From Styela clava (lineage: Eukaryota > Chordata > Ascidiacea > Stolidobranchia > Styelidae): a DNA stretch of 64,000 nucleotides. A program made the translations under genes and the position numbers. Location of the stretch: assembly GCF_964204865.1 (NCBI RefSeq), contig NC_135254.1, positions 5,709,001 to 5,773,000 on the forward strand. The letters are read 5' to 3'. The notes under the pieces were generated by a model, which did not search any database, was not told the DNA's origin, and saw nothing but the letters and a program-made list of their open reading frames with translations. Below are positions 2,641 to 61,898 of this stretch, one piece after another. Numbering within the stretch: position 1 is the stretch's first letter; each line of letters begins with the position of its first letter.

Positions 2641-2788
2641 TTGGTTCAGTGACTGTATGGTCCTCCCAACCTCCTATCAATTCTGTTGTTAGTCGATTAT
2701 CCATCTTTTACTTATTGAATGTTGTTTTTTGTTTGATTTGTTGGGTAATGACTGGATACTTGATTTTTAGATATTCTGTATTAAAATC

Positions 2789-3715
2789 ATGGAATCCACT
2801 GAAAATCTATTTCCCTGCCTTATCTGTGATGAAAACCTCTCATCAGGGCCAAGATTGAAAAAGCATATGTTTTTGCACATTGACGATGGAACTGGCGATT
2901 TGAATGAACATGCAACTGATATGCCTATCAACACTGTGAAGGAGCATTACGGAGAAGTTATTGCAAGTAAAACTTCTTCACATAGTGATGGTGAAAAGAA
3001 ACCATATGTTCTTGTGCAATGTCGAGAAAGTGGTTTGATCGATAAAACTGGAACTGGGAAAATTGATGTAACCTATATAAACACTAACATCAGACCAGGG
3101 TCAAATTTACAAACTAGCAGTGAAGATAAACGAATTCTTTGCCAACAATGCGGGAAGAACTTCAAATCAAATCAGAATTTAAATCTGCATATGAGAACCC
3201 ATACTGGTGAAAAACCTTACATATGTAAGCAATGCGAAAAGGCTTTTACACAACTATCTCATCTAAAAGTGCACAAGCGAACTCATACTAGAGAAAAACC
3301 CTATATTTGTAAACAATGTGGAAAGTGTTTTACACAATCATCGAATTTACGAGTGCATAAGCGAATTCATACTGGGGAGAAACCCTATATCTGTAAACAA
3401 TGTGGTAATAGTTTTTCGCAATCATCTAGTTTACAAGATCATATACTAACTCATACTGGAGAGAAACCTCATGTTTGCAAGCAATGTGGCAAATGTTTTT
3501 CACGATTGTCTAATTTACAAGTACATGAGCGAACTCATACTGAAGAGAAATCTTATGTTTGTGAACAATGTGGAAAAGTTTTTTTGCAGCCGTCCGGTTT
3601 ACATGTGCATAAGCGAACTCATACTGGGGAGAAACCTTATGTTTGTAAACAATGTGGTAAGAATTTTTCACACATATCCAGTTTACATACCCATGAGCGA
3701 ATTCATACTGGATAG
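2789..3715 (+). CDS. C2H2 zinc-finger protein, 308 aa (copy D)
   Basis: Intact reading frame with an isolated N-terminal finger (residues about 10-30, CLIC...H-x3-H), an acidic/polar linker to about residue 113, then seven tandem C2H2 fingers of the [10 protein letters not shown] type. It is expected to act in the nucleus as a sequence-specific DNA-binding protein. The start ATG lies 18 bp after a strong 3' splice site (TTTTTAG then ATATTC at 2771). The same acceptor is conserved before the ATG of the copy at 59,113, so a separate upstream 5' exon is likely. The frame stops at TAG inside a TG-stop-KP linker, and decayed fingers follow. The true protein may therefore be a shortened version of a longer ancestor. 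No KRAB, SCAN or BTB domain is visible. Confidence 0.85.
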
Positions 3716-5108: not shown

Positions 5109-8018
5109 CAGTGGCGGCGCGTCAATAGGGCCAATGCCACGGTTGTTTTTTCGGTATAATAAAAAATATTCGAAAAATACCACAATATCGGTTGCACAGA
5201 CTGTCTACACTAGCCATATTCTCCCGACATGATTCATTTTTCGCTCGCAAAGCCTTCGCCGAACGTCGACGGGGCGACGCCGATTTTGCCCCGGTTGCTC
5301 ATTGTATATCGTATTCTCTCTTTTATCTTCCACTCGCCACGTTTGTCTCGTTTGTTTTCTGTTTTTTTACTAAATCATCGGGGCTAGCCCCGAAATTATG
5401 ACGACACAATGCCGACGTTTCTTACAACAACGTGTTGACATATCCACGCATTCCTTCTCGTTCGTTGGTTGCTTGAAGAATTGATAGTTTCCTCGCCTTC
5501 GTTTTTCCACATTCCTTTTGAGCTCCTCACTTCTTTCCGGCTTCGCATTTCTTAGCCTTAGACCTCATAATGAATAAGGTTGACGCACTACTTCGCACTC
5601 CGTTTTCGCAGCTGCCGGTGGAACAAAAATTAGAGGTACAACGTCTTGGGCCTTATCAACCAAAAAATTGTTCACTGGAACAATCCCATGACGGAGGAAA
5701 GCGTCGGCGTACATTCTGCGCAGAAACTTGGTATAAAAAACACGAATGGTTGTTACAGCGAGGACAAAAATGCACTTTTTTGTTTTTATTGCCTACTTTT
5801 TGCTACCGCCCGTGACTCACGTTGGTGTAAATTTGGTTTTAAAGATCTTAAACATCTTTCCGAGCGTGCCAGGGATCATCAATCTTCTATGGAGCATCTG
5901 GACAATGCAGTAAAATACCGAACATTCGGAAATGTTAATATTGCAGCACAGTTGGATGAAGGACGCGCGGTTTCTATTCGTCGGCACAACCAAAACGTCG
6001 AGAAAAACCGCCATGTTCTCGGTCGATTGATAGATGTTTTGAAGTTCATTGGTTGTCACGAGCTGTCCTTCCGTGGGCACGATGAACGGATTGGCTCTTC
6101 TAATAGAGGGGTATTTTTGGATATGGTGGAATACACCGCATCCCTAGATACAGTATTGAGAGATCATCTTGATGCCGCAACTGTTTCGAAAGGGACATCT
6201 AAGGATATCCAAAATGATTTGCTCGACTCAATGTATAAAATTTATTTACAACATTTGGCTCTGGAAATTCAAAATTGCCAGTTCCTTTCGATTCAGTCTG
6301 ACGAGACAACTGACATCACGTGCGTTTCCCAACTGGCTGTGATTTTTCGGTTTGTGAAAGATGGTAAACCTACCGAGAGATTTCACAGCTTTGTACCAAT
6401 CGTTGATTGCACGGCTTGCGGGATATCGGCTGTACTGAAAGAAGTGTTACAGCCTTACAACGCGAAGTCAAAATTGCTCAAACTTATGACGGCGCGGCAG
6501 TCATGAGTGGGTTGAAACATGGTGTTCAAGTTTATATAAAAGAAGATTTTCCTCATGCGCATTCAATTTAACCTCGTTATTAAAAATGTATGTCTTGATA
6601 CCCCTCTCGTCCGTATATTTTTTGCAAATGTTTCGGGGTTTTCTTCATTTTTTTCCGTTTCGCCGAAGCGCTCTGACCTCCTTCGCCAGATATGTAGCCG
6701 CCGTCTCCCAGCTTGTGCACCAACACGTTGGAACTTCCAATCACGCGTGGTGCAGGGCGTGTCCGAAATTAGGTCTGAGCTCATTGAGTGTTTCAATGGC
6801 ATTCAGAGCTCTCCGGTTTGGGACGAACGCTCTGTGAGGGAGGCGGCAGGTCTAAAGCGTCTGCTAGAAGATGGTGAGTTTTCATATTTTCTCCACAATA
6901 TTCTATCACGTGGATGTATTATACGGCGCATTGCAGTCAAGGCTAATGGATGGAGCGTCTGTGCAGTCGTGTATTTCAGACTTCTGCGATGCTGTATCTC
7001 GTATCCGGGAAACAATAAAATACGACACATGGAGTGCTTCTTTACGCCGCGGGCAAACAACGCAGCGTTTGATTTTGTCTGCAAAGGAATGCTGTGACAT
7101 TCTGGTGAATCAAATAGGCGATCGTCTGCGCACTGAACACCTTGCCGCGTTCTCTTTGATGAACCCCAAAAAATTTTCAAAATTTGCACGTCAATTTCCC
7201 ATCCATTTGTTGGCTACTGTCTCCAAATTTTACCCCATGATAAACGTGGGTAAATTGGAAAATGAATGTATATACACCAATCAAACTTTTTTGAACATCA
7301 CATCAACTTGCGCGCTCTATGGGTTCCTCATAGCTAACACTCTAGTAACTACCTTTGCGGCGTCTGCAAAATTTCTGGACATCATTTTGACGACGCCTAG
7401 TTCTTCCGCCGACGCAGAGCGAACATTCAGCACGCTGAAGCGTATTAAAACGTATCTCAGAAACACAATGAAGCAAGATAGATTAAATTCCTTGGCTGTT
7501 TTATTCATTCACAGAGGCGTAATTTCTGGGATGCATGACTTTAATCAGCGCGTTATTGAGCATTTTGCTTCCAAGAAACCGCGGCGTGTTGCATATATGT
7601 TCAAGCAGTAGAAGTCTAGCAGCATATATATCTATGAGTGAGCGACGCATGTCCTTATCTTTGCATTAACTTTCCTTTCTTCATAGTAACGTTTTAAACC
7701 TTATTTTAAGTTTTGTCTGCTTTCCCGAAGTTTCTGTTAATATGTCATTGTATTTATCTGGGTAAATATTGCCTTTCCTTTTGAAAGAGGTTTCAAAATA
7801 AACTATGTCTATATTTATTAATCCCTTGACTTGGACCGGTTTTAAAGACACTTTCTTATCGTTAAAAATTGTCGCTTTTTCCGATTGGTTGTTACCGATG
7901 GAATGGTTTTTATACTCCTAAAATGATGGGAGAACTTACAGCGCTCATCCTGTCCCCGTAGATGAGGGTGACTTGGTCCCGCAGTAGCTTGCCCCGGTTG
8001 TCAAAATGGCCGCCACTG
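5109..8018 (+). mobile_element. hAT transposon (DUF4371 type), probable extent
   Basis: The left end CAGTGGCGGCGCGTCAATAG has the look of a hAT terminus. The likely right end (GCCGCCACTG at 8009-8018) is the inverted match over 10 bp. The element encloses the frameshifted hAT transposase at 5570-7611. No matching 8-bp target duplication is visible (GTAACACG on the left, AATTATGC on the right), so the right boundary is uncertain. Confidence 0.45.
5570..7611 (+). pseudogene. hAT transposase, DUF4371 type, frameshifted
   Basis: Read across at least four frame changes, the parts are: a start MNKVDALLRTPFSQLPVEQK; a TTF-type zinc finger (LGPYQP, WYKKHEWL, NALFCFYCLLFA); the DUF4371/RNase H-like core (SIQSDETTDIT, then TYDGAAVMSG in another frame); and the hAT C-terminal dimerisation region (SSADAERTFSTLKRIKTYLR) near 7400. 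These features place it in the ZMYM/THAP-associated hAT group, a cut-and-paste nuclear transposase. Frames change around 5670-5740, near 6490-6560 and near 6870, so no single product is possible. An AATAAA lies at about 7796. Confidence 0.88.
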
Positions 8019-16594: not shown

Positions 16595-16744
16595 GGACAA
16601 CACTAAAAGGCTGAAGGAAGAAACGGATGAAGTGGAGGGAAAACGGAAGTTGAAGTGTTCCCAAAGGTGAAAAATTAAAAAACACTAAAAGGCTGAACAC
16701 TAAAAGGAAGAAGTGGATGAAATTTCTTCCGACGGGTAGTTAGG

Positions 16745-18055
16745 TGGCTGAAGTCACTAAAAAGCTGAACACTAAAAAGAAGAGGTGGATGAAATTTTTT
16801 CCGACGAATAATGAGGTGGTTGAAGTCACTAAAAAGCTGAACACTAAAAGGAAGAAGTGGATGAAATTTCTTCCGACGAATAATGAGGTGGTTGAAGTCA
16901 CTAAAAAGCTGAACAGTAAAAGGAAGAAGTGGATGAAATTTTTACCGACGAATAATGAGGTGGTTGAAGTCACTAAAAAGCTGAACACTAAAAGGAAGAA
17001 GTGGATGAAATTTTTACCGACGAATAATGAGGTGGTCGAAGTCACTAAAAAGCTGAACACTAAAAGGAAGAAGTGGATGAAATTTTTTCCGACGAATAAT
17101 GAGGTGGTTGAAGTCACTAAAAAGCTGAACACTAAAAGGAAGAAGTGGATGAAATTTCTTTCGATGAATAATGAGGTGGTTGAAGTCACTAAAAAGCTGA
17201 ACACTAAAAGGAAGAAGTGGATGAAATTTTTTCCGACGAATAAGGAGGTGGTCGAAGTCACTAAAAAGCTGAACACTAAAAGGAAGAAGTGGATGAAATT
17301 TTTTCCGACGAATAATGAGGTGGTTGAAGTCACTAAAAAGCTGAACACTAAAAGGAAGAAGTGGATGAAATTTCTTTCGACGAATAATGAGGTGGTCGAA
17401 GTCACTAAAAAGCTGAACACTAAAAGGAAGAAGTGGATGAAATTTTTTTCGATGAATAATGAGGTGGTTGAAGTCACTAAAAAGCTGAACACTAAAAGGA
17501 AGAAGTGGATGAAATTTTTTCCGACGAATAATGAGGTGGTCGAAGTCACTAAAAAGCTGAACACTAAAAGGAAGAAGTGGATGAAATTTCTTCCGACAAA
17601 TAATGAGGTGGTTGAAGTCACTAAAAAGCTGAACTCTAAAAAGAAGAAGTGGATGAAATTTTTTCCGACGAATAATGAGGTGGTTGAAGTCACTAAAAAG
17701 CTGAACACTAAAAGGAAGAAGTGGATGAAATTTTTTCCGACGAATAATGAGGTGGTCGAAGTCACTGGTTGAAGTCACTAAAAAGCTGAATACTAAAAGG
17801 AAGAAGTGGATGAAATTTCTTCCGACGAATAATGAGGTGGTTGAAGTCACTAAAAAGCTGAACACTAAAAGGAAGCAGTGGATGAAATTTCTTCCGACGA
17901 ATAATGAGGTGGTTGAAGTCACTAAAAAGCTGAACACTAAAAGGAAGAAGTGGATGAAATTTTTTCTGACGAATAATGAGGTGGTTGAAGTCACTAAAAA
18001 GCTGAACACTAAAAGGAAGAAGTGGATGAAATTTCTTCCGACGGATAGTGAGGAA
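16745..18055 (+). repeat. 72-bp tandem array, left arm (about 18 units)
   Basis: Units begin around CACTAAAAAGCTGAACACTA and contain GAAGAAGTGGATGAAATTT and CCGACGAATAATGAGG. Spacing is 72 bp, except for one irregular junction at about 17,761-17,775. The unit has no stop in one plus frame (24 codons, KKLNTKRKKWMKFFPTNNEV...) nor in a minus frame (hydrophobic FLLVFSFLVTSTTSLF...). I regard both as by-products of a period divisible by three, not as genes. Confidence 0.95.
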
Positions 18056-22375: not shown

Positions 22376-23410
22376 GTGACTTCAACCGCCTCAAAATTGA
22401 TGAGACAAAATATCATCTAACCCTAACGTACTTCTTCCTTATAGTGTTTAGATTTTTAGTGACTTCAGCCACCTCACCACCCGTCGGAAGAAATTCCATC
22501 CACTTCTTTCTGTTAGTGTTCAGCTTTTCAGTGACCTCCGCCACCTCATTATCCGTCGGAAGAAATTTCATCCATTTCTTCCTTTTAGTGTTCAGCTTTT
22601 TAGTGACTTCAACCACCTCATTATTCGCCGGAAGAAATTTCATCAACTTCTTCCTTTTACTGTTCAGCTTTTTAGTGACTTCAACCTCCTCATTATTCGT
22701 CGGAAGAAATTTCATCATCAACTTCTTCCTTTTAGTGTTCAGCTTTTTAGTGACTTCAACCACCTCATTATTCGTCGGAAGAAATTTCATCCTCTGCTTC
22801 CTTTTAGTGTTCAGCTTTTTAGTGACTTCAACCACCTCATTATTCGCAAGAAGAAATTTCATCAACTTCTTCCTTTTAGTGTTCAGCTTTTTAGTGACTT
22901 CAACCACCTCATTATTCGCCGGAAGAAATTTCATCAACTTCTTCCTTTTACTGTTCAGCTTTTTAGTGACTTCAACCACCTCATTATTCGTCGGAAGAAA
23001 TTTCATCAACTTCTTCCTTTTAGTGTTCAGCTTTTTAGTGACTTCAACCACCTCATTATTCGTCGGAAGAAATTTCATCCACTGCTTCCTTTTAGTGTTC
23101 AGCTTTTTAGTGACTTCAACCACCTCGTTATTCGTCGGAAGAAATTTCATCCACTTCTTCCTTTTAGTATTCAGCTTTTTAGTGACTTCGACCACCTCAT
23201 TATTCGTCGGAAAAAATTTCATCCACTTCTTCCTTTTAGTGTTCAGCTTTTTAGTGACGTCAATCACCTTATTATTCGTCGGAAAAAATTTCATCCACTT
23301 CTTCCTTTTAGTGTTCAGCTTTTTAGTGACTTCAACCACCTCATTATTCGTCGGAAAATATTTCATCCACCTCTTCCTTTTAGTGTTCAGCTTTTTAGTG
23401 ACTTCAGCCA
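22376..23410 (-). repeat. 72-bp tandem array, right arm (about 14 units)
   Basis: Reverse complement of the left array. Starts of AGTGACTTCAACCACC recur every 72 bp from 22,459 to 23,398. One 75-bp unit at about 22,675 carries an extra ATC, and a diverged first unit lies at 22,376. The outermost units are the closest match to the outermost left-arm units. Confidence 0.95.
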
Positions 23411-23560
23411 CCTAACTACCCGTCGGAAGAAATTTCATCCACTTCTTCCTTTTAGTGTTCAGCCTTTTAGTGTTTTTTAATTTTTCACCTTTGGGAACAC
23501 TTCAACTTCCGTTTTCCCTCCACTTCATCCGTTTCTTCCTTCAGCCTTTTAGTGTTGTCC

Positions 23561-26720: not shown

Positions 26721-27300
26721 CCAATACTTATACTTATATGTGAACTGATTGTTGGTGTGAATGTTTGGGAAGTAAGGCGCCTCCATAATAACAATTGTAG
26801 TTTCTAACAACACGGAGAACTATAACAATTATATAATAGGTGAATCACTAATTTTGTTATTTAAAAACGCGGAGGTTGTGTTTTTTTCAAATGTCACATT
26901 TTTGCATTAGTAGTGGGGCTTTGTACAAAAGATCGAAGAAATCGCCACAGCCCTGGTTTAGGTGCTGCACGTACACGGCTCAAACCAACCAAGCATCGTG
27001 AGATTTGCAAAAAAGATGCTATTTAATTAATTATTAGCGATGGCTCACAGCATTCCGCTCGTGATAAAAATATAACATACGCCTGATTAATTAAAAAGGT
27101 CCGACATCCTTGTAACAGGACAAGGGGTGACGAATTTTCTCTGAGCTTAGCAATGATTGCTCGACTCACGTAGACGGTACTATTTACTACTACTATGTAA
27201 ATGGACAAATAATTCGTACCATTGGGATGCAGGTTAAAGTCACCATGACATTCATGTTAATACATTTTGTTAGTTTAAAATTATATAGTAGGAGTGTTAA

Positions 27301-27510
27301 AGTTGGGTTATCACGGAGCATTTTTCTGGTTTAATTTTATTGTACAAATTTTTTTAGAATTTTTGACGCTTTCCGTTTACATAAAATCGACTTAATTTTT
27401 AAAAGTCGACCCGTCAGGAATCGAACGCTAATTAGTATGGCCCCGTGATGACGTAGCAGTGAGAACTCGTCAACGGAGTTTTGCATTAGGTTAAAGGCAT
27501 TTTTGGTACT
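27301..27510 (+). repeat. Left terminal inverted repeat of Kolobok-like element
   Basis: Matches 32,660-32,854 inverted. Shared blocks are GGGTTATCACGGA, TTTTTTTAGAATTTT, CGCTTTCCGTTTACATAAAA and TGATGACGTAG...GTGAGAACTC. Confidence 0.85.
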
Positions 27511-27985
27511 TCGCAATTTTATTTTGGATGGTGTGTCGGTTCTATTGGGCATTGCAGTTTAAAACGGTGCAGTATGTTTTAACATATACCAGTATTTTAA
27601 AATAATTTCAATGCAGTGTTGGCAATGACTGTGAACTCAGCGAACTGCGGTCAATTAGACTACCGTGTACCGGTACCGTACTTGGTATTTCTGCTGAACT
27701 ATTACCGGTAGGGCCTACAGTATTAGGGTACGGTACCTGCGGTACGGCATTGACAGCATATTCTAATATTTTAGGTATTCTTTATATATGAATTATTTAA
27801 GTTTTACACTCTTTATCGGGTTCTGTTTTCTCTTCTAAATCTATAATCCAATATTTTTTTATTACATTGCCAGTGCACCATACCTAACACCTGAACACTG
27901 TTACACCAACCTGCCAACTGACCAACAAACCTAGCAGCAGTATAGTAAATCAAAGTTATATACCGGTATTGACCGTGCATCAGTA

Positions 27986-30900
27986 ATGCCTAGCCGTTGT
28001 GTAATTGGAGGTTGCTCCAACACTCATAGAGATGGAGTGTCATTGCATATTTTTCCGAAAAATCAAGCAAGAAAAAAATTGTGGGTTAAATTTGTAAAAC
28101 TAACCCGGTCTGATTTCTCGTTTCAAACACACAAAAGACCACTAATCTGCAGTGATCATTTCAGTCCTGAAAGTTATGTTGAGAGAATGAAATATTGTGA
28201 TGAGGGCAGCCAGAGAGTTTTAAGTGAAGTTGCAGTGCCTTCCATTAAAAGAGGCAGTGATTTAGAAAAGAAAAAATAAAGATATGTGGTGCAGAAAAGG
28301 GAGGGATTGGTGGTTTGTAGAAAGAAATTATTCAATGACAGGTCAAGTTTTTATATATTCATATTTATCAGTTTTTTTTTTCAGATCGCCAGTGGCTTTT
28401 CACATGATGAAGCTTCGTCATCACAGGTACAGTATTATTTTCTGTCATTTAGGCAGCTGACAGAAGGTTAGAAAACTAATATAAGATCAGGCTATTGTTA
28501 TTCCTCTAAATTTTTTTTCAGCAAACACCAATTTAACAAAATTATGATCCATAAGATACTGTGTGCAATAAAACAGTTGAGCGGTATAAGATTATGGTCA
28601 GTCAAAAGCATTCATTGCAGTTTATTTTGTCAAACAGTTTAGAGATAAATTGTTAAACTGTTGCCATTTCAGACAGTTACACAGCAGTCTAAGCAAACTC
28701 AGACTTTACAGAGACGTGGAAATTACAGTAAAGGTTCAGAACTAGACATATATTCAGGTTATATATTATTGTGGAGATGCTTCTTTCTAATTATTAAATA
28801 TCTGTTGCAGCATGCCAATCCAGCATCCAATTAAGATCAGTCGGCTTGCAATGTGATTTGATAGCTGCACTTCCATTGCAGCTGTTCAAATCACAGGAGC
28901 AAAACATGGTTGTCGACTCCGACTCGATTTCTGAAATGGATGACGACTCAAGTACAGACAGTAGCTCTGACTTGATTAGTGTTTCAGATGAGTCATGCAG
29001 TGCGTAAGTATCAATCCTTGGAGGCAAATTTTATAGACATTTTCATTTAACTTTTAATTAATTTCTAGAGAAGGAGAGTCGTACGAAACTGTAAAGGAAA
29101 AATACATCGTTAGCCGACATAAGCTTTTGCAACTCTTTGCTAGTTGTGAAAAGTGCTCAGGAATTTGTGCCGTCGATGTAGAAAGGGTGGTTGGAACCAT
29201 GGTGGTAATCCAAGCCATTTGTTGCCAGTGTGGGTATAATCGGCATTGGGAAAGCCAGGATTCCATTGGTGGTATATCAGAGGGAAACATCCTCTTGTCT
29301 GCTTCCATTTTGTTTGGAGGAGTTTGTCCCAAAAAAGTATTACGATCGCTTTGTAACTCAGGCATAAGAACCATCGCATACAGGTACATTTTTATTACAA
29401 ACAATTTGTTAGGTAATATGTATTTTTCATATTCATAACAAAAATGGAATATTTATCAGTGAAATATTGAATTAGACAAATTAATTTATTGCTGTCCATA
29501 ACATTATAGTATTTGACATTTCCTATTCAGTACATATCAACGACACCAGGATAAATACTTGCAGCCGGTGATTGTTGCATCCTGGGTTGAACAAAGAGCG
29601 GCATTGCTGGCGGAGAGGAGAGGCATGCCATTGACTATAGGTGGTGATGGCAGGGCTGATAGCCGAGGTCATTCTGCCAAATTTGGATGCTACACTATCA
29701 TGGACCTAAAAACAAATGAAATAATTGATATGAAACTCATCAGGTAAGTTGTAGTGTATATCCAAAATCAACATAATTTCTGTTTTCATATCAATGTTTA
29801 CTATTCGTTATTAGAAAAATGAAGTTACGAGCAGTAACCATATGGAGTTGGAGGGTTTAAAGAGAGGTATAGATGCACTTTTAGAAGAGGGAATAAGAAT
29901 TGGCGAACTGATAACAGATAGACACCCATCTGTGACGAAATGGGTTTGTGAGAATCTGGGACGAAGCATTTTTTTGACATTTGGCACATTGCCAAAGGTT
30001 ATTTTTTTTTATTTCATCAGTGCCATATTTTAAATTTCTGGACTCAGTTGGCATAAAATTAATGTTTCAAAAATCTTATATATTGCATTTCAAATTTTTG
30101 TAGGTCTTGGTAAAAAGATTGACTCAAAGGCTAAACTTACTGATTGTGGCATACTGCAAGAGTGGAGGCGGAGTATTATTAACCATTTGTACTGGTCGGC
30201 GGGTAGCTCGGGGGGCGATGGTGACATGGTTGAGCAGAAAGTCATGAGCCTACTTCGTCACATCCGAAATGTTCACACAGGACATGGGAACCTATACATG
30301 GAATGTCAACATGCACCTTTAGGTGATGAGGAGGAAAAAAGGAAGAAATGGATTCTTCCAGGTAGTAAATAATATAAGAGTTTTAATGGATCACGATCCA
30401 GTAAAAATACTGTAAAGTTTTTGGTGATTGCGGTTTGTCTTATATATCACTTTTTTAATAGGACAGAGAGCGTATGATGAATTGGAGAGTCTTTTTGATA
30501 ACTTTAGGTTCAAAAAAGACATCCGAAAGCTCTCACCATTAGATCAGACATCTGGATTGGAAGGGTTCCACTCCCTATTGAACCATTTTGCTCCCAAGAT
30601 GCTGTCGTATGGTTACAAAGGAATTTTCTGCAGGTGAGTTCCATAAATATTCCAATATCTGAAACAGAATAACGAGTTTTAACGGTGGGTATGTTTATTC
30701 TAGAATGTTATTAGCGGTTCTACACCACAATGCTAATAGTGGAAGACCTCAGGCAAAAACAAAGGATGGGTGCCTGCAATATGAGGTCCTGTATCCTAGG
30801 GGGAAAATGGGACAGCACACTGTTCGAAGAGTACGCTTTGAGCCGTGTTATGGTGAGTCCGTAAAATATAAAACGTTCGACTTGAAAAACAGAAGTATAA

Positions 30901-31097
30901 GTGATTCACTTATCTTTTTCACAGCATATGTGAAAGTCTTGCTTCAGAAAGTTATTTCAGAGGTTGATGGCAGTTCAACCACAAGCCAGGGTGATCTGTC
31001 ACTGATATCATCACCACCACCAACCTTGTCTTCCAGGTGTGAGAGGCCAGATAAGCAGCTCGCAAAACAGGAGCTTCAAAGCCGTTTTAATAGTTAA
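27986..31097 (+). CDS. THAP-domain DDE transposase, spliced (Kolobok-like)
   Basis: Exon 1 (27,986-28,279) encodes a THAP C2CH zinc finger (MPSRCVIGGC...PLICSDHFSPESY). Later exons, inferred from GT/AG borders and continuous phase: 28,385-28,426; 28,673-28,733; 28,811-29,003 (acidic Ser/Asp-rich); 29,069-29,383 (CEKCSG, CCQCGYNRHW zinc pairs); 29,531-29,743 (YQRHQDKYLQP, GGDGRADSRGHSAKFG with catalytic Asp); 29,815-29,997 (TDRHPSV, FFDIWHIAK); 30,104-30,361; 30,462-30,633 (TSGLEGFHSLL with candidate catalytic Glu); 30,704-30,852; 30,925-31,097. The product would bind element ends and cut and paste in the nucleus. Two one-base frame breaks occur, at the A run near 29,815 and at 29,960-29,975 beside a T run. 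The last intron (72 bp) is in frame and open. The junction after exon 1 is unclear. Confidence 0.78.
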
Positions 31098-31110
31098 GTA
31101 TTGACAACTA

Positions 31111-31340
31111 GGGCTGTGGAGCCGAAAAAAATTCACGCAAGCAATTTCGGCTCTAACTTTTCAGGAAATCAAATTTGCCTTATGCAAGCTTTTGTAGTTT
31201 TAGAAAATTCAAATGTAAATTGCTATCACTATTAAGAAGTTAAAATGAAAAGAGAGACTAATCTATGCAAATTAGGCCATTTAAGTTTAAAATTCGTATC
31301 CAAAGGTCAAAAAAACATGTCAACCTCGGCTCCACAGCCC
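31111..31340. mobile_element. MITE-like inverted-repeat unit in the transposase 3' region
   Basis: GGGCTGTGGAGCCG at 31,111 and its exact inverse CGGCTCCACAGCCC ending at 31,340, 230 bp in total. No convincing 8-bp duplication. Confidence 0.6.
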
Positions 31341-31434
31341 ATAGTTCATCAAATGCAATTTGTCCGTTCGCCCTTCTTGGTTTATTTTTCATCATTTGTT
31401 TCATCTTCTGATTTTCTGGTAATTATTTTGTGCC

Positions 31435-31440
31435 AATAAA
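31435..31440 (+). terminator. AATAAA polyadenylation signal for the transposase gene
   Basis: AATAAA lies about 340 bp after the transposase stop, followed by a T-rich stretch. It is the nearest good signal on plus. Confidence 0.5.
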
Positions 31441-31495
31441 TTTTTTTCTCTGAAATCTCCATTGTTTCAACGCCTCTTGTTATAAATATTGGGTT

Positions 31496-31511
31496 GGCCC
31501 TAAAAAGGGCC
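31496..31511 (-). terminator. Histone-type 3' stem-loop
   Basis: On minus the sequence is GGCCCTTTTTAGGGCC, a 6-bp stem with a four-T loop fitting the replication-dependent histone mRNA consensus (GGYYYTTTHHARRRCC form), followed by AACCCA. An AACAAGAGG purine patch about 16 nt further resembles a histone downstream element. It lies about 40-90 nt after the candidate stops of the P2X7-like gene. No histone gene is present nearby. It may process the element's minus-strand mRNA, or be a chance or captured sequence. Confidence 0.6.
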
Positions 31512-31596
31512 CTTTTTCATGCAGTTCGCTGAGAAAAATATTTCTAAGGTGAAGGTGGTTGAAATCCTGTGTATGAGGGGGATTCAAAATGTTCTC

Positions 31597-32322
31597 TTAT
31601 CTTCCTACCCTGCCCCAACACCACTCCACGAATGATCGGTAGGAAGTGTAACGGTTACGCCTGAAAAAATACAACCAATAAGATCGAAAGAAATGACAGA
31701 TAAACATGTTTAAACGTAACATAAACTTACTCATTTGGAGCTGCACTGATTTTGCCCCAGATCTTTGGTAAGTGGCTTCAAGAACAAAAACATTAAGGCA
31801 TATTGGTTCAAATCCAGGATGATCAACAATGCATTGAACCTCAATTCCATGCTGCGTAGCCAAACGTTCCGAAACTCTTTTGACTGCTGGGGCTTCGTGA
31901 CAACAAATGCATGATGCTGGATTGGATTGTTCAGAGCAGTGTGAACAAAAACACCTGCAAAAACAAGTGCGCTAGAATTGTATGGATAAAATGAAATACT
32001 GCTTTATTGGAATATGATTATTCAAGTTATGTTTAACTGATTCTGGATGTAAGACTTTTTATCAAACCATTACTACTGTAGTAGAAGACTACCAACACTT
32101 ATTGTAGTACGGTAGCCTACTGTAATTATCAACGTACCAATCTGTATTGCCCAGACGTTCATGATGCAGCTCTTTTTCAGTGCTACTGACTTCCAGTGCA
32201 GTAAGCTCTTCAGCAGTATATTCAGGTTCGTACATGAACCCCCCCCCCACACACACACACACACCACCTGCAATATACATCTCATCCTCCTCATTACTGC
32301 TCTCATATTCGCTGCCACTCAT
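31597..32322 (-). CDS. P2X7-type ballast (P2X purinoreceptor 7 C-terminal) domain protein
   Basis: Three exons: 32,322-32,138 (acidic N-terminus MSGSEYESSNEEDEMY and FMYEPEYTAEELTALE), 31,954 to about 31,727, and from 31,660. The Cys-rich core CFCSHC...CICCHEAPAVKR, then HPGFEPICLNVFVLEATYQR, then NRYTSYRSFVEWCWGR, matches the zinc-binding intracellular domain of P2X7, known also from many channel-free proteins. No transmembrane segment is present, so this is not a receptor. The second donor is ambiguous (GTAAGT gives the wrong phase; a weaker GTTTAT four bases on restores it). The frame ends at GRVGR-stop, whereas the next frame continues the family-like tail (RKIREHF...YTGF) to about 31,548, suggesting a one-base lesion. 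A C/CA microsatellite lies inside exon 1 (GVCVCVGGG). Function is unknown. Confidence 0.7.
32239..32264. repeat. C-run and CA microsatellite
   Basis: Ten C residues followed by (AC)8, located within exon 1 of the minus-strand ballast-domain gene and translated there as Gly/Val/Cys. Confidence 0.9.
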
Positions 32323-32659
32323 CTTTGTTTCAATTTCAAATTGTTTATACGTATTTGATTTTATGATTAAAAACCATTAATGTGAACTTGTACGAAGTTG
32401 CTATAAATAACAATTTGAAAAACTGTGTCTTAGATAAATATCACATGAAACAATTTGAATTATGAAAATGAAAGCCTACCGTACTCTACCAGCGATGCGT
32501 TTGTAACATACAGCATCATCTCTTGGGCGCCTGACTACATGGGAATCCCACAGCTGTACATTTCTGTTCTATACCGCAATACTGTTCAACTATAAATCAA
32601 ACTTCGCGAAAAAGAAATGGAATTAAATATAGAAATCGCGGTACATACGACGTGACTAC

Positions 32660-32854
32660 AAAATCTGGAATGAGTTCTCACTACTACGTCATCAGAGGCC
32701 GCGTCCGAACTTGAGTCGATTTTTGCTGATGCGGTTTTTAAAAATTCGAATCTCGAAAATTAAGTCGATTTTATGTAAACGGAAAGCGTTGAAAATTCTA
32801 AAAAAATTTGTAGAATAAAATTCAACCAAAAAAATGTTCCGTGATAACCCACCT
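32660..32854 (-). repeat. Right terminal inverted repeat of Kolobok-like element
   Basis: Reverse complement of the left repeat with scattered differences and a longer middle segment. It ends at the TTAA at 32,855. Confidence 0.85.
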
Positions 32855-33020
32855 TTAAGAATATATGCGGATCTTTTGTACAAATCCCCCACCAAAGAAA
32901 ACGCTTAAAAACAGGATTATCCATGGGAATGGGATGGGACAGCACATAGTTGTATTTCCCATGGGACACGAAAACCGTATGATTTTCGGAAAATGATGGT
33001 AAAACATTATGTTATAGATT

Positions 33021-33409: not shown

Positions 33410-33478
33410 TTAAAACGTGGCGTTTTTTCCTCAAATTTTGCATTAGTGGCGCGGGCTTTGTACAAAAGCTCCAAGGTG
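33410..33478. repeat. Dispersed GGGCTTTGTACAAAAG repeat
   Basis: TTTTGCATTAGTGGCG followed by GGGCTTTGTACAAAAG. A direct copy lies at about 26,880-26,945 and an inverted partial copy at about 32,870-32,905, all just outside the Kolobok-like element. Confidence 0.6.
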
Positions 33479-37588: not shown

Positions 37589-38590
37589 CAGGGGTCACCA
37601 ACCTTTTCGAGGCCGAGGGCTACTTTCTGGGTACAGATTAAGCCGCGGGCTACCAATTCAATGTATATTTCTAAAAAGTCGCGGCTGTGTGGCCATCATT
37701 AGTGTGCTAAGCGTTAGGTTTGCAGGTTAGAATCCCATGCGAGGATAGTTATGTGCGAGAGGATTGCTGGACCCCTTGCCACCGTTGGGATGGCTTCCTT
37801 CGCCATCAAGTCCATGCTTACGAAAATAAATAAATAACTAATCCCATACCCGACATGAAATGGTAACCGGACGAGAGGCTTGGGCTCGCCATATGGTTAA
37901 GCCGTCTTATCGGCTATCTTCTCCCCCGGGATAAATATGTAAATCCCATCCTATCCGGAGTTTATGTTAAAAATGTTGATTCACAAAGATAGGTTGAACG
38001 AAACAATGGTCTCGTAAAATAGAATTGCTGTATGATTTGAATTGCGAGCTTTTTCTGCCCGTACTGCGCTGACCAGTGGATAGTTAGCGCGGTAGATTGC
38101 GTGACAAGCCGTGAATATATTTTCGCTTTGCCGTCGCTACAATCGCCCCACAAATGAGACACGCGCAGGCTGTTTTCATGGTGGTAAAAATATATCCACC
38201 CCCATTCATCGAGAAAATGGTGGGTTTTTCTGCCATTTTTCTTTGAAATCAAGAATTATATTATTGCTGCTCCAAAAACCAACGGACAAGAAAAAGCGCG
38301 GGTTCGTGGTAAATGATATCAGTGTGATGTCATAATTGCAAGAGTGTTAATTGACCCGTCACACTACTGAGATCAAATAAAAATCAGGTTGATGGCTACA
38401 ATATTTAATATAGTGCCATTCCTGATTCCCATATAAGTGTGATTTACACAAGAATAGCAGGACAAAATTTATTTGATGTAGCTTACTCTTAAGCGCCGTT
38501 ATTAAGCTTAGTTTGAAACAGACCTGCGGGCGACTCATATGGTCTTCACGGGCGACTTGGTGCCCGCGGGCAACGCGTTGGTGACCCCTG
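37589..38590. mobile_element. hAT MITE, 1,002 bp, inserted in LINE ORF2
   Basis: The left end CAGGGGTCACCAACC and the right end GTTGGTGACCCCTG are inverted. A perfect 8-bp duplication ATTTAAAC lies at 37,581-37,588 and 38,591-38,598. A subterminal CGGGCGAC/GCGGGC-rich block is at the right end. No transposase. Contains a SINE at 37,681-37,956. Confidence 0.93.
37681..37956 (+). mobile_element. tRNA-type SINE, copy 2, nested in hAT MITE
   Basis: GTGTGGCCATCATTAGTGTG with GTGCTAAGCGTTAGG (A-box side) and GGTTAGAATCC (B box) about 25 bp on. Body GAGAGGATTGCTGGACCCCT, GACATGAAATGGTAACCGGA and GCCATATGGTTAAGCCGTCT. Ends GGGATAAATATGTAAATCCC. Best-preserved copy in the window. Confidence 0.85.
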
Positions 38591-41500
38591 ATTTAAACTA
38601 TGTGCATTATTTATCAAAATATTTCTTTCATTAATATACTTTGGACAAAATAGTAAAAAATGGGCTACAGTTTCTTGTACAGAGCAAGTATCGCATTCGC
38701 CATCTGGGTGACAGCCTATTTTAAAAAGATGGTGGGAGAGCCTGCAATGTCCAGTCTGAATATAATTGATTGGGGATCGCGTTAGAGAAAGGTTCGGATA
38801 TGAATCTGCTGTCGGAATGAACATTTTGAAATGTGATGCGATGGTCGACGATTGGTATTCAAATTTCCATTTATTCAAACTTATACTTCTAATTACAGTT
38901 TTTGCCTCTTGTACTGTATGTGGGATATTGTCGATAGCGGCGTCTCCAATGCACGATCTTGCAAGCTGATCCGCTCTTTCATTTCCCAATATGCCCACAT
39001 GACCTGGAATCCAAATATATTTGACGTTGATACCTTCTTTTCTCAAATTAATAAGTATACAAATTATTCGCGCAACCAGATGGTGAGATGAACTATTGAA
39101 ACATTCGATACTTTTAAGTGCGCCAAGACAATCCGAAAGAATCAGTACTGAGGAAGGGCGATTTATGCCTATCCATTCCATTGCCATGCTTATTGCATAA
39201 AGTTCGTCAGTGTATGACGTTTGGGTTCGTGGTAATGAAAAGGTCATAGTAGTTTCACTCTGTAGCACGTAAAAAGAACAGCCAACTCCTTCCTCTGTTT
39301 TAGATCCGTCAGTGTAAACATATGTATAATGTTCAAAGATAGATTGAATATAATCATTACTCACAACCTTGATATTGTTTGTTGCAACCGGTTTTAGTAT
39401 ATTGACGAGTTCACAATCAACAGCTGGTTTTTCTATCGTCCATGGAGCATCGTAATACACTGGATATCTCGATACTTCCAAATTGTTGAAAATATTCGAA
39501 CTTGTCAACATGTTAAATGTTTTGAAAAGAGGGGAATTGGGAAAGTATTCCTGCCAAGATTCTCCAATTATATGTTTTAGAGGATGATTATTTATAGAGA
39601 TGAGGTTCAATTTATAATTGAGACAAAGCTGCAGATGTCGGATATGTAAATTTAATTCTCCCGTAGCTGCAATGGAGGTACTTTTCATAGCGCCACAGCA
39701 TATTCTTAGACACTGGCTTTGTATTAACTATATCTTTTTCAGGTAGGAATTAGGAGCAAAAGAGTAAGCTTCCATTCCATATTCATAAATAGGTTTTATT
39801 ATTGATCGAAATAAAGCGATAAGAGCTTCCTTGGAGGCGCCCCATGATGTACCCGTAAGAAGCCTTAAAATGTTTATTCTTTTCAGAGATTTCTCATATA
39901 TGTAGTTATATGATGTTTGTAAGACAGACGTTTATCAAAAATAATTCCCAGGTATTTAAACTCTGATTTTACTGGAAGCACTTGACCACCCATTTTCAAT
40001 CTAATATTGTGTAATCGTCGTACCTTGGTAAAAACCATGGCTGTTGACTTCGTTTTTGAAATTGTGAAACCCCACTGTTGACACCATGTACTTATCACGT
40101 CTAAAGATGATTGGATTGAAGCTTCTATTTTCCTAACTTGTAGGCCCGATTCCCAGATTGCTCCGTCTTCCTAAAAAAGTTTACATACTGATGCCGCTAT
40201 GTTAGCGGGTAAATCATTAATGAAAAAAGAATGGGACTGATCACACTGCCTTGCACAATTCCATTTTCTTGTTCGAATATTCTGGATAGAGTGGATCCGA
40301 TACGAACTTGAAAATTTCATTTTTGAAGGAAAGATTTTATCCACACGAGCATACGTCCTCGAATTCCGAGTGCGTGTAACTTCGAGATGAGTCCACTACG
40401 CCATATCATATCGTAAGCGCGTTGGATATCTAAGAAAACGGATACGACATGTCTTTTGTTATTGATTGCTTTATACACTTCATCGTGCAAACATAATATG
40501 TTGTCAGTTGTAGATTTTCCACGACGAAAACCTGCTTGATCATCACTTAATATATTATTTTTAGTTAAAAACCATTGTAGTCTTTTTGCTATCATAGTTT
40601 CCATAATTTTACAAAGATGACTGGTTAAAGCTATAGGTCTGTAGGAATTTGGCGAGGTAGCCGGTTTATTAGATTTAAGTATGGGTATTATAGTGGAATG
40701 CAACCATTTGCTTGGAACATAGCTAGACGCCCAAGATTTATTATAAAATGACAAAAGTGTCTTCATCGAAATGTCGGGAAGGTGTTTGATCATGTCGTAA
40801 CATATTCCGTCTTCACCAGGGGACTTATTCTTTTTCGATGCCAATGCCAACTTTAACTCTTCTATTGAAAAATTTGTATTAATTTCGCTAGAAAAGTTGC
40901 TTTCGATTGAAATAGATCTAAAAGTGTTCCTTTCAAATTCTGCCTTTCGCGAAATAATTCCTTGGCAGTAGTTATCAGTACTACTAACCGAGTTAAACAC
41001 AGATCCCAGCATATTAGCCTTATCCAAGTCAGTTGTTAAAATTTTATCAGCGTCATGCATGGTAGGTATATTAATATTATTATGACGGGAAGTGCCGGTG
41101 AAGCTTCGAACAACATTCCAAACTGTTGACAGACTACTCTGCTTATTCAACGAATTACAATATTGTATCCAACTATTTCTTTTGGTTTTTAGAATTATCC
41201 GTCTACATTCCGCTCTGCGCTTTTTAAATTCTACTATGTCACTCTGATTCCACGTTCTTTTCCTTTTTAAATATGATGCTCTTTTTAATCTAACAGCTTT
41301 ATCACATTCCGATGACCACCAAGGAACTGGCGATTTGTTTTTGATATTTTTGGTATAAGGGATGGATTGTTGAGCCGCTTCAGTCAAGCGATGTGATATG
41401 TTATTACTAAAAACTTCTACGTCGTCTGATATCAGTAAATCATTGATTGTGTCTATGCATTTTAATTGAAATTTATTTCAATCAGCTTTCTTCAGCGACC

Positions 41501-42296
41501 AGGATGAAAATTGTATTTTATGAGAGAACTTTACTCAAAGATAGGTTAAAATTATGCAGTGGTCGCTCCCGATGAACTGGTCAGTGACAACCGCGCGACA
41601 TTTCGAAGCAATATCAAGCGTAGCAATCGATAGGTCCAATAGAGACCACCTATTTATAGCTCTCATGGATATATTCATTCTTGTTGGTTGGGAAGTGTTA
41701 AGTATTACTAAATTATTTTCTTCAACGGCATCCATGAGCATATTACCCCGTGAATTTGTCATGGAGCTCATCCACATCCGATGATGTGCATTAAAATCTC
41801 CAAAGAACATTGATCTACATGGAAAGTCTCGGATGAATTTGAAATGGCTTTGATTCAAAATATTTCCCGGAGGTATATATACATTGACAAATTTATGTTC
41901 ATGTATTTCTATGCATTGTACTTCAACAGGCGATGGTGCTTTCAAAGAGATCTCTCTGTAAGGTAACGAGTTTCTAACTATAATAGCCAGGCCACCTCCT
42001 GCTATTGATCTATCTTTTCTTATTATTGAATATCCTTTTAAAGAAGGTGAGTACTTCGATATTAAATGAGTTTCTTGTAGTAAGATTATATCTGGTTTCT
42101 TTTCTAAATTATATATATACTTCTTAAATTCGTATAATTTTCTGTATATGCTCCTACAGTTCCACTGTAGTACGCAAAAAGAAATTTCCCCAAGTTCCGC
42201 CATTAAGTTTCGTCAGAAGCCTTGTACTGAGGCGTTACACTGTTTAAATCAAATCCAAATTGTTTTCCGGCTGACATGGATATTATGGAAGATATG

Positions 42297-49576: not shown

Positions 49577-50618
49577 GTGGTTTTGGTAAATGAAAAATGG
49601 ATCTACAATCAAAAAAGCTTGTCCGAGCGACTCAGTCAGATTGCCTTATGTCATAATTTGATAGGTTCAAACATAATGGGTTTCTTTGTGATTTTGAGGT
49701 TGGTGGAAAATCTTTTCGAGTGCATCGTACTGTCTTGGCCGCCTCTTCAGAATACTTTGAAGCCATGTTTTCAAGCAACATGAAGGAAGTTCATTATGGC
49801 CACGTTAATATGAAGGATGTCGATCAGGATCAGACAATCGTCTCGATATAAAACAAGAAGCCGAACAGTTCGTGATAACTAATTTCAAATCTGTTATTTC
49901 TTCTGAGATGTTTCCATTCGTCACCAAATCAGATCTCTTGCGTTACATGAGAAACGAGACTTACCAAACATCATGGGAAGCTGTTGTAACATGGGCAAGA
50001 AGTAAAGACAACGTAGATGTTTTCGAGGTTGTCCATACTGACAAATTTCCATTTAAATTTCTTCTGCAAACTGTCCTTGAAGAACCCATTGTAAAAAAGA
50101 ATAAAACGACTAAAAATTCAGTGATTACCGCCTTATTCTCTGAGGTAAAAAAGATGGAGACAGGTCTCGAAATTGACAACTGCTTTACTTTGAAGAACCT
50201 GGCTGAAACACATCAAGTTAATGATCCGAGTGCAGTACGAAATGTGATAACTCAATTTTTGGGGGCAAATTTCGAACGTGTTATAAAGAAAAAAGAACTT
50301 CTTGACATAAGCAAGGATGACATAATGGCACTTTTCAAATCTTCAAGCACAAAATATTCTTCCGATGCTGTCAAATGGGAGGCGATGCTAAAATGGGTGA
50401 AACACGGTGTCGGAAGTAGAAGAAAAATATTCCCAGACTTGTTTAGTTTTCTCAAACTTGAAGATTTATCTCTTGAGTTTCTAAAGGAGACAGTCCGAGT
50501 TGAACCCTTGGTTAAGAAAGCAGAGAAATGCATCGACATGCTCATGGAAGAAATTTTCTCTCGCGCTTCTGCAAAAGTTATTCAACAAAGAAAAACAAAC
50601 AAAGATATTTATTTATAA
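49577..50618 (+). pseudogene. BTB-BACK-BACK protein gene, broken, intronless
   Basis: N-terminal piece NEKWIYNQKSLSERLSQIAL, then after a frame change near 49,677 the BTB half CDFEVGGKSFRVHRTVLAAS and SSEYFEAMFSSNMKEVHYGH. The second half of the BTB is missing and the frame shifts again at about 49,835. A BACK domain follows (IKQEAEQFVITNFKSV, SWEAVVTWARSKDN), then a 248-residue open frame to 50,618 holding a second BACK-like unit (AVKWEAMLKWVKHGVGSRRK). No kelch repeats follow. Relatives are cullin-3 substrate adaptors. Absence of introns suggests a retrocopy or a single-exon KLHL-like family member. Confidence 0.8.
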
Positions 50619-54898: not shown

Positions 54899-56970
54899 AT
54901 GGCATCGATTGGGCCAAGCAGCTTGCGGAGAACTGGAATCACAAGAGTGTACAATGCTGATGATATTCTTGTCATTTTGAACTGTGATGATAATAATGGT
55001 GGATGCACTAGTAGTGGGTCAGATAGTGAATACGATATCAGAAAAGACGAAAACAACGGCTCCCAGGTTCATAATATTTTCAAATAATGGTTACATAGTT
55101 TCTTTTTTTGAAGAAGCATTACACAACTGCTTACGATCAATTATCGCTCACAGACACAAAAAATATCTTCTGACAAATATCTTGATCACTCATTGATCGA
55201 AACAATAAATAATGTTGTTCTTTGTTTTTATTTCGACATATTTCATTTTACAGATTGAGTCCGAAAGTTCTGACGACGACGTTCTATTGGCGAATCTACG
55301 AGTGCAAAATCAAAAACAAAGCCAAATAGAAAATGCAACCGACCGCAATGAGTTTCGGTGGAAAAAGAAGCACAACGATAGACCTGATGCAACATTCCTC
55401 GGTCCACAATTAAATCCTCCAGCTGACATGATTGTAGATACGCCATTGCGTTATTTCCGACGTTTTGTTACAGAGGAAATGCTGCAACTTCTGACAGAAC
55501 AAACAAACCTCTACAGTGTTCAAAAAAATGGTGTTTCGGTCAAAACGAACAAAAAGGAAATTGAGCAGATATTAGGAATGTATTTGCACATGTGTATAGT
55601 GCAGATGCCCAGTGTTCGGATGTATTGGGAAACTTCAACATTTTATGAGCCAGTGAGTGGAGTTATGTCTCGCAACCGCTTTCAAACATTGCTGAGAACT
55701 CTACATTTTGTAGACAATTTGACTGTGTCTGACAACGAAAAACTTTCTGACAAGCTATGGAAGATTCGTCCGTGGCTAACAATGTTCAGAGATGCATGCT
55801 TACAGGTTACAGCCGAGGAATACAACTCTGTTGACGAGATGATGTGCCAGTATAAAGGCACGACAAGTTCCATACGTCAGTACCTGAAGAGTAAGCCTCA
55901 TCCGTGGGGTTTTAAAATCTGGGGAAGAGCGGTTATAAGTGGAATTCTTTTCGACTTTGATGTCTACCAGGGTGGTACCGGTGAACGCACAGAGTTAGGA
56001 CAAGGTGCGGACAATGTTCTCAACTGACATCAACATTGCCATACCATGCAAACTACAAGATATTCGCTGATAACCTTTTTAGCATCTTTCCACTCATCCA
56101 AAAATTATCAGAGAGGGGAATGCAATATGTTGGAACCGTGAGAAAAAATCGCCTACCCAACTGTAGCCTGGACGATGAAAAAACATTAAAGAAGAAAGGC
56201 AGGGGGAAGATGACTTCAGAGTTCAAAACAATAACATAATAGCCGTAAGATGGTATGACAACAGGGCAGTGTCACTACTATCTTCGTACGTAGGAGTGGA
56301 GCCAATTGATCAAATCAGACGATGGGACAAACGAACGAAACAGCATGTGCACATAGCCATGCCTGCTATCGTTCAAGAATACAATAAGTTTATGGGAGGT
56401 ATTGATAAATTGGATTCATTTCTTGCAAAGTACAGGTTCCGAATGAAATCAAAAAGATGGTATCTTTATCTTATTTGGCATTTTATAATGGTTGCTATTG
56501 TGAATGCCTGGCTCTGGTACCGCCGTGATTGTGCTCTGCTCCATCTTACAACGCGAATTATTATGAAACGGAGACATTTTCAAGCAGCAGTCGCAAGTGC
56601 TTTGATCCATGTCAATACTGACACCCGTCGCGGGAGACCATCGTCTGAAGTTGAAGAAATTCGCAGCCCCTCAAGAAAAATTTCCATGGCCCCATGTGAA
56701 GATATTCGCCGAGACAAATACGCACACTGGCCAACGAAAATTGAGAAAAGGGGAAGATGCAAATTGTGTGAACGCAATCAAACAAATACCAGTTGTTTAA
56801 AGTGTAAAGTGAGACTTTGTTTTGTCGAGGGCCGCAATTGTTTTATGACTTCCACGCCTGAGGAACTTCAACTTGTTTTGACTAGATTTTTCACATTTGT
56901 ATACAGTGTAAATCCCATTGTAACACATATGTCACATTTGAAAAGGGGGTTGAATGAGGTCAAAGGTTAA
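54899..56970 (+). pseudogene. piggyBac transposase, two exons, two frameshifts
   Basis: Exon 1 is 54,899-55,066 (MASIGPSSLRRTG..., donor CAG/GTTCAT). Exon 2 starts at 55,254 after TTTTACAG, in phase. The DDE_Tnp_1_7 domain has all three catalytic aspartates: SVDEMMCQYKG, FADNLFSIF and MGGIDKLDSF. The C-terminal zinc ribbon is CKLCERN...CLKCKVRLC...CF. One-base losses near 56,020 (before LTSTLPYHANY) and near 56,230 (before IAVRWYDNRAV) break the frame. The enzyme would excise and insert at TTAA sites. The C-terminal tail ends at 56,970. Confidence 0.88.
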
Positions 56971-61719: not shown

Positions 61720-61898
61720 GCGGAGGGGAACGATTAACTCATTCATAATCTCCATTTTTCTTATTTGAATAGGCTAGTGCTGTCTAATCAATGGTTCTCC
61801 ATCTTTTAAACATCTGGAAACCTATATAGCCAGACTAGATATTTAACTTATTTTTTTTTCATTTTTATTTTTTACTTTTATTTTGTTGTGCCACTGCC

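Follow-up and report, generated by a model that had tools for sequence, protein, structure and literature searches.

A decayed Kolobok transposon of Styela clava, very probably of the two-gene Kol0 type encoding a transposase and KolX

Kol0 elements, P2X7 ballast proteins and the Styela clava locus

Kol0 families of Kolobok DNA transposons encode two proteins, a transposase and KolX, according to the main text of Kojima & Bao 2022 (PMC9587614). There, KolX is described as resembling P2X7 residues 476-595, with two zinc ions and seven cysteines; P2X7 is traced to a fusion with KolX, and Nanor is regarded as a likely domesticated KolX. The Kol0 hosts named are vertebrates, annelids, cnidarians and sponges, and the words tunicate, ascidian, Ciona and Styela are all absent from the main text. 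Here we analysed a stretch of 64,000 nucleotides from the ascidian Styela clava (C5:5709001-5773000, called the window below), in which a transposon of 5,554 bp lies at 27301-32854 with TTAA directly on either side and encloses a plus-strand transposase gene and a minus-strand KolX-like gene. With a probability of about 0.93, it is a decayed copy of a two-gene Kol0-type Kolobok DNA transposon (transposase plus KolX).

Kol0 (Kolobok-1_XT type), as PMC9587614 describes it in its main text, is like the Styela element in TTAA, AG...CT ends, a DDE transposase with DxxH and finger motifs and a ballast-like second protein; the differences are that ascidians are a new host group, as far as the literature was searched, and that the Styela copy is decayed. 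KolobokP, which combines a transposase with a His-Me nuclease, also has its second gene downstream on the complementary strand according to the same text, but it carries long terminal direct repeats and the nuclease, whereas the Styela element carries inverted repeats and KolX. XKol of Xenopus (PMC6004289) is alike in its THAP, DDE and H2CH motifs, AG ends and TTAA, and the available sections of that account treat only the transposase, not KolX.

For the second gene, the comparison is with P2X7 ballast and NANOR-like ZCD proteins (PF20478, PTHR36981), which are reported in PMC7016195 and share a cysteine cluster and a PSC...IR...YTGF tail with the Styela protein. The invertebrate ZCDs in the sections available keep equivalents of R546 and R578, and so does P0001, the protein encoded by a sister copy on C10, in a weak alignment. 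Unlike P2X7, the Styela protein has no channel and is transposon-borne. The available sections of the same paper (Rump et al. 2020) report stand-alone ballast domains without pointing to a transposon, and mention an Ixodes protein with a domain printed “TAHP” ahead of the ballast domain. If this is read as THAP, as we suggest, a fused Kolobok gene model would be consistent with it.

In literature from 2020 onwards, only PMC9587614 was found to link the P2X7 ballast with transposons, and it was also the only paper found on KolX and Kolobok. A literature search (Repbase being outside its scope) found nothing on Kolobok in Styela and a single review for Kolobok with ascidians. The original prediction, made from the sequence alone, held that a ballast-domain gene as the second gene of such an element was not a standard description; this was mistaken, since the arrangement is already published for Kol0 in the main text of PMC9587614. 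The element is therefore new only as an ascidian family of a known kind, as far as the literature was searched. It also confirms independently, from raw sequence, that Kolobok and the P2X7 tail are linked, as published.

Ends and genes of the element

The ends, the target site duplication and both genes are observed in the window itself, and their recurrence and decay in the comparison with sister copies. The boundaries are as follows.

27297-27300, no strand: TTAA, left copy of the target site duplication (from the sequence)
32855-32858, no strand: TTAA, right copy of the target site duplication (from the sequence)
27301-27468, plus strand: left terminal inverted repeat, starting AGTTGGGTTATCACGG (113-nt arm at 90%, and gapped alignment of 1-168 with 1-183)
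32672-32854, minus strand: right terminal inverted repeat, ending CCCACCT (arm comparison and gapped alignment)

The inverted arms 27297-27409 and 32746-32858 are 113 nt long and 90% complementary, and the gapped alignment pairs positions 1-168 of the left end with 1-183 of the right at 78% identity with 17 gaps, so that the repeats are imperfect. TTAA on both sides had been predicted and stands at exactly these places; the inverted repeats, predicted at about 200 bp, are present, and only their length was slightly generous (168 and 183 bp aligned). Both ends read AG[T/G]TGGGTTATCACGG, and the 22-base end motif, with at most 3 mismatches, occurs twice in the window, each time at an end of the element (shuffle mean 0.00, n=100). 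These AG...CT termini are of the 5'-RR / YY-3' type that PMC9587614, in its main text, gives for Kolobok. The 4-bp TTAA duplication characteristic of Kolobok is found on both sides of the window copy, of its duplicate L009 and of L012. As a whole, the predicted element was confirmed almost to the base, and its assignment to Kolobok was right. Copies of a short repeat around GGGGCTTTGTACAAAAGATC stand on either side of the element, in both orientations (window 26900-26938, 32869-32894 and 33436-33475); it is probably an older repeat that received the transposon insertion.

The transposase gene comprises the following parts.

27986-31097, plus strand: spliced THAP-DDE transposase gene, decayed here (tblastn with P0003, sister comparison)
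27986-28279, plus strand: first exon region with THAP, ending in a TAA that is absent from the C8 sister copy (Pfam PF05485)
29517-29747, plus strand: stop-to-stop frame of the exon with the first catalytic Asp (GGDGRAD)
29815-30000, plus strand: exon with the second catalytic Asp (TDRH) and with DxxH, which is out of frame in this copy
30461-30637, plus strand: exon with the catalytic Glu (GLEGFH)

The THAP domain at the start of the gene matches PF05485 with E 3.7e-16 (60.1 bits against a cut-off of 23.9), and the later plus-strand exons correspond piece by piece to P0003, a Styela clava protein of 716 aa from C8, which bears out the predicted spliced THAP-DDE transposase on this strand. When the best 7,992 candidates by shared words were scored, 38 proteins similar to the transposase were obtained at E <=1e-10, with named sources among echinoderms, fish, amphioxus, acorn worm, ticks, coral and sponge. 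Styela contributes two of the 38, one of which, P0004, carries the same frame break as the window. The first catalytic D is conserved in 37 of the 38, the second in all 38 and the catalytic E in 33; the DxxH motif has its D in 36 and its H in 35, and the H2CH finger keeps its residues in 37 (H), 22 (second H), 36 (C) and 37 (H). The THAP residues are present in 19-25 of the proteins, and nearly all the remaining ones are gapped there. Thus the Kolobok pattern of DDD/E with C/DxxH between the second D and E is found in P0003 and most of the 38 proteins, and the H2CH finger between DxxH and E is likewise present, as is THAP.

The minus-strand gene consists of two exons.

32138-32322, minus strand: KolX-like exon 1, with donor GTACGT (GTAAGT in L009 and L010) (sister comparison)
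31545-31954, minus strand: KolX-like exon 2, the ballast-domain part (CFCSHC...CICC), whose frame stops early at 31597 (sister comparison)

Exon 32322-32138 joins 31954-31597 in frame and ends at the early stop; the two genes are convergent, with stop codons about 450-500 bp apart. A further intron inside exon 2 was considered and rejected, the stretch being kept open in L009 and L010. Against P2RX7_C (PF20478), the joined product of the window reaches E 0.011 and 16.1 bits, below the cut-off of 23.5, while P0001, whose residues 34-182 match C10 at 100%, lies above it with 32.3 bits (E 1.2e-7). The prediction of a spliced gene with the P2X7 C-terminal (ballast) domain therefore holds for the two exons, and for the domain it holds through P0001, not through the window product. 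A second protein with ballast similarity, as described for Kol0, is accordingly encoded by the C10 copy.

P0001 contains 11 cysteines (C34, C36, C39, C48, C50, C51, C74, C85, C119, C145 and C160), and its isoelectric point is 4.3 for residues 1-33 (acidic) and 9.1 for the rest (basic). A PDB sequence search with P0001 returned only two P2X7 chains, at E 4.5 and 6.5, which are not significant and no evidence alone, but agree with the ballast assignment. Two protein searches for KolX relatives, with 27 and 44 candidates, both gave the same pair of Styela proteins; this small number reflects a shallow word-based search, not rarity of KolX.

Sister copies and their decay

To find sister copies, the genome was searched with the left 210 bp; the best 40 of 120 candidates were scored, and 20 stretches were examined, two of them extended. 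It turned out that 5 full-length rows matched at 91-100%, 31 rows matched at 71-77%, and 4 rows covered only positions 1-99 at 91-93%; of these four, three are right ends (window, L009 and L012) and one is L022. Among the five close left ends (at least 91%), four (window, L009, L010 and L012) are accompanied by pieces of both genes, and neither gene lies within the 9 kb examined at the fifth, L011. The expectation that both genes recur was thus upheld, by pieces of both, at four of five close loci. The minus gene belongs to the element, and the view that ballast-type proteins travel by transposition proved right.

L012, on C8, is an independent insertion, because it has TTAA on both sides and different flanks; it kept the transposase exons and lost KolX exon 1 and part of exon 2. 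L010, on C10, retains a left end and the second KolX exon in full, and its transposase has suffered a large internal deletion. Relative to the window, substitutions amount to about 1.1% in L009, 2.0% in L012 and 2.2% in L010, as counted from BLAST pieces of at least 150 nt, in which the inverted ends may count twice. A genome search with KolX (all 61 candidates scored, 23 rows) added two decayed relatives, one on C9 with KolX pieces at 69-83% and one on C18 with a main KolX piece at 50%, both with transposase remains adjoining in the same convergent order.

Against the C8 copy, three lesions are seen in the window transposase: the THAP exon region is closed by a TAA codon, one base is lost towards the end of the 29517-29747 exon, and 10 nt are missing around 29954. 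At the first place, L009 carries a loss of its own, of 7 nt. The 10-nt absence is older than the duplication because it is common to the window and L009. From these lesions and those in KolX described below, a working transposase or KolX from the window copy would be very unlikely.

L013-L028, 16 loci in all, account for 16 of the 31 diverged rows and also take in the lone right end L022. None of the 16 has a KolX match, and a partial transposase match occurs in four (L014, L018, L020 and L023), so that most are without transposase too. Short TTAA-flanked elements of 1.65-2.66 kb (L013, L014, L015, L024 and L025) are ordinary non-autonomous derivatives. Copies with these ends and no minus gene, which the original prediction had named as counter-evidence, do exist in the literal sense, but they are the C8 deletion derivative and relatives with diverged ends.

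At L024/L025, three left ends lie 5,883 bp apart (C16:14949898, 14955781 and 14961664), each belonging to a 2.66-kb TTAA-flanked element with related ends; the series is a tandem array. Long elements with related ends (L017 290-7033, L027 297-7962 and L021) contain jerky/Tigger-like and hAT-like frames, named by eye, and are probably nested insertions.

Alternative explanations, the role of KolX and neighbouring features

Several points weigh against the Kol0 assignment or against a functional KolX in this family. First, all four close KolX copies are damaged or changed. The window copy has lost 40 nt of exon 2 that L009 and L010 possess; this deletion changes the reading frame and takes away the P0001 segment KIRFPLPSCVVV with the conserved cysteine C160. 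L009 lacks 12 nt including the AG acceptor of the window and L010 gene model, with another AG just upstream; in L010 the upstream exon-1 start is out of frame, an inner Met serving as the start of the annotated product; and L012 is truncated. Second, recurrence is narrower than the count of loci, because the flanks of L009 (C5:5996063-6003494) match those of the window, at 92% over 263 nt on the left and at 99% over 406 nt on the right, making it a later duplicate about 260 kb away and not an independent insertion. L010 has no recognisable right end in the stretch examined, no termini were seen at the C9 locus, and the C18 locus has only a weak 55-nt left-end match. Third, in a tree of 23 of the 38 transposase-type proteins, chosen among those with a named source and more than 400 aa and with no named Kol0 reference included, 10 of 20 inner branches were open and Styela stood on an open fork, which bears on the Kol0 placement. 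Finally, an AlphaFold model of P0001 from the single sequence gave a mean pLDDT (predicted local distance difference test) of 37 and no structure support, and a genome search with PF20478 returned 0 matches, a result that is uninformative since 14 controls also returned 0. Separately, the copying of the window element together with its flanks on the same contig could be a segmental duplication or an assembly haplotype.

Among the alternatives, the one that survives best concerns KolX itself, which might be a passenger or a dying accessory dispensable for the transposase. The C8 copy, which retains its transposase exons while KolX exon 1 and a part of exon 2 are gone, fits this, as do the lesions of the window and L009 and the changed N-terminus of L010; the weight of this explanation rises because KolX in L009 and L010 is not wholly intact. 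On the other hand, the second exon of both L009 and L010 is open to the same natural stop and 99-100% identical to P0001, and a 50%-identical KolX still stands beside transposase remains on C18; such long retention would argue for use. We regard a mere passenger as possible, though rather unlikely.

Within the two-gene Kol0 reading, a helper in the transposition complex is tentatively the most likely role of KolX, slightly ahead of the passenger. From family knowledge, the THAP domain would bind the terminal repeats, and the DDE domain would cut the element out and join it at TTAA. KolX may then be a small zinc-stabilised accessory protein with an acidic start and a basic rest, working together with the transposase, for instance when the cut ends are assembled or protected; in Kol0 it could take the place that nucleases and helicases have in other Kolobok lineages. 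The Styela family adds ascidian sister insertions, at about 2% substitutions from the window and with surviving open KolX second exons, as material for testing this role.

It seems improbable that KolX is a true Kol0 transposition co-factor that binds zinc and also guanine nucleotide through two arginines common with P2X7. In a weak alignment, P0001 has equivalents of two of the five guanine-nucleotide residues (R546 and R578); those of H547, R574 and K583 are absent, as read by eye. If such binding were true, the P2X7 ballast would be a transposition factor that was domesticated and senses nucleotides; the Styela family, with near-identical KolX second exons in separate insertions, would then be tractable for testing it.

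That the minus gene is instead a host ballast-domain gene captured by one transposon copy, and no regular second gene, is very improbable. Three orphan KolX-like pieces without a P0003 transposase match beside them (C6:12868659, C17:18636444 and C18:18363982) speak for it. However, both genes recur on C5, C8 and C10, and in decayed form on C9 and C18, with order and strand unchanged; for Kol0 families of other animals this arrangement has been published (PMC9587614, main text); and the only orphan of the three examined closely, L033 on C6, is a 63-aa decayed piece. No whole KolX gene was seen at a locus without element remains among the loci examined, two orphans and six exon-1 pieces excluded. 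The latter six are exon-1-only KolX matches at 71-72% identity, five spread over 0.5 Mb of C16 (C16:13969777, 14064861, 14176265, 14290463 and 14455230) and one on C17 (C17:10954165).

A piggyBac-type element, which would share the TTAA duplication and for which PMC9587614, in its main text, reports a few families with a protein resembling the KolX C-terminus, can practically be dismissed, as the AG...CT termini are of the Kolobok type that the same text contrasts with piggyBac, the transposase bears THAP, DxxH and H2CH finger motifs, DDE_Tnp_1_7 matched none of the seven scanned exon pieces and not P0003 either, and the piggyBac-type open reading frames (ORFs) of the window sit at 55209-56967.

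Besides the Kol0-type element, the window contains several other features. The piggyBac-type transposase pieces just mentioned (DDE_Tnp_1_7, E 3.4e-39 and 2.2e-17) represent another TTAA superfamily near the Kolobok copy. A C2H2 zinc-finger ORF lies at 2771-3712, DUF4371 and hAT-dimerisation pieces at 5634-7608, LINE-type (long interspersed nuclear element) pieces with RNase H and endonuclease at 38549-42212, a BACK-domain ORF at 49809-50615 and a PHD-plus-endonuclease ORF at 61839-63998. Two arrays of a 72-bp repeat (product like NNEVVEVTKKLNTKRKKWMKFLPT) occupy 16683-18053 and 22430-23472 with about 19 and about 14 copies respectively; they are 4.4 kb apart, mutually inverted and open on both strands. 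In a Pfam scan of 22416-23411 on the minus strand, PET, C4bp_oligo and Phage_lambda_P pass the whole-protein cut-offs and no single stretch passes, which is probably an effect of the repeats.

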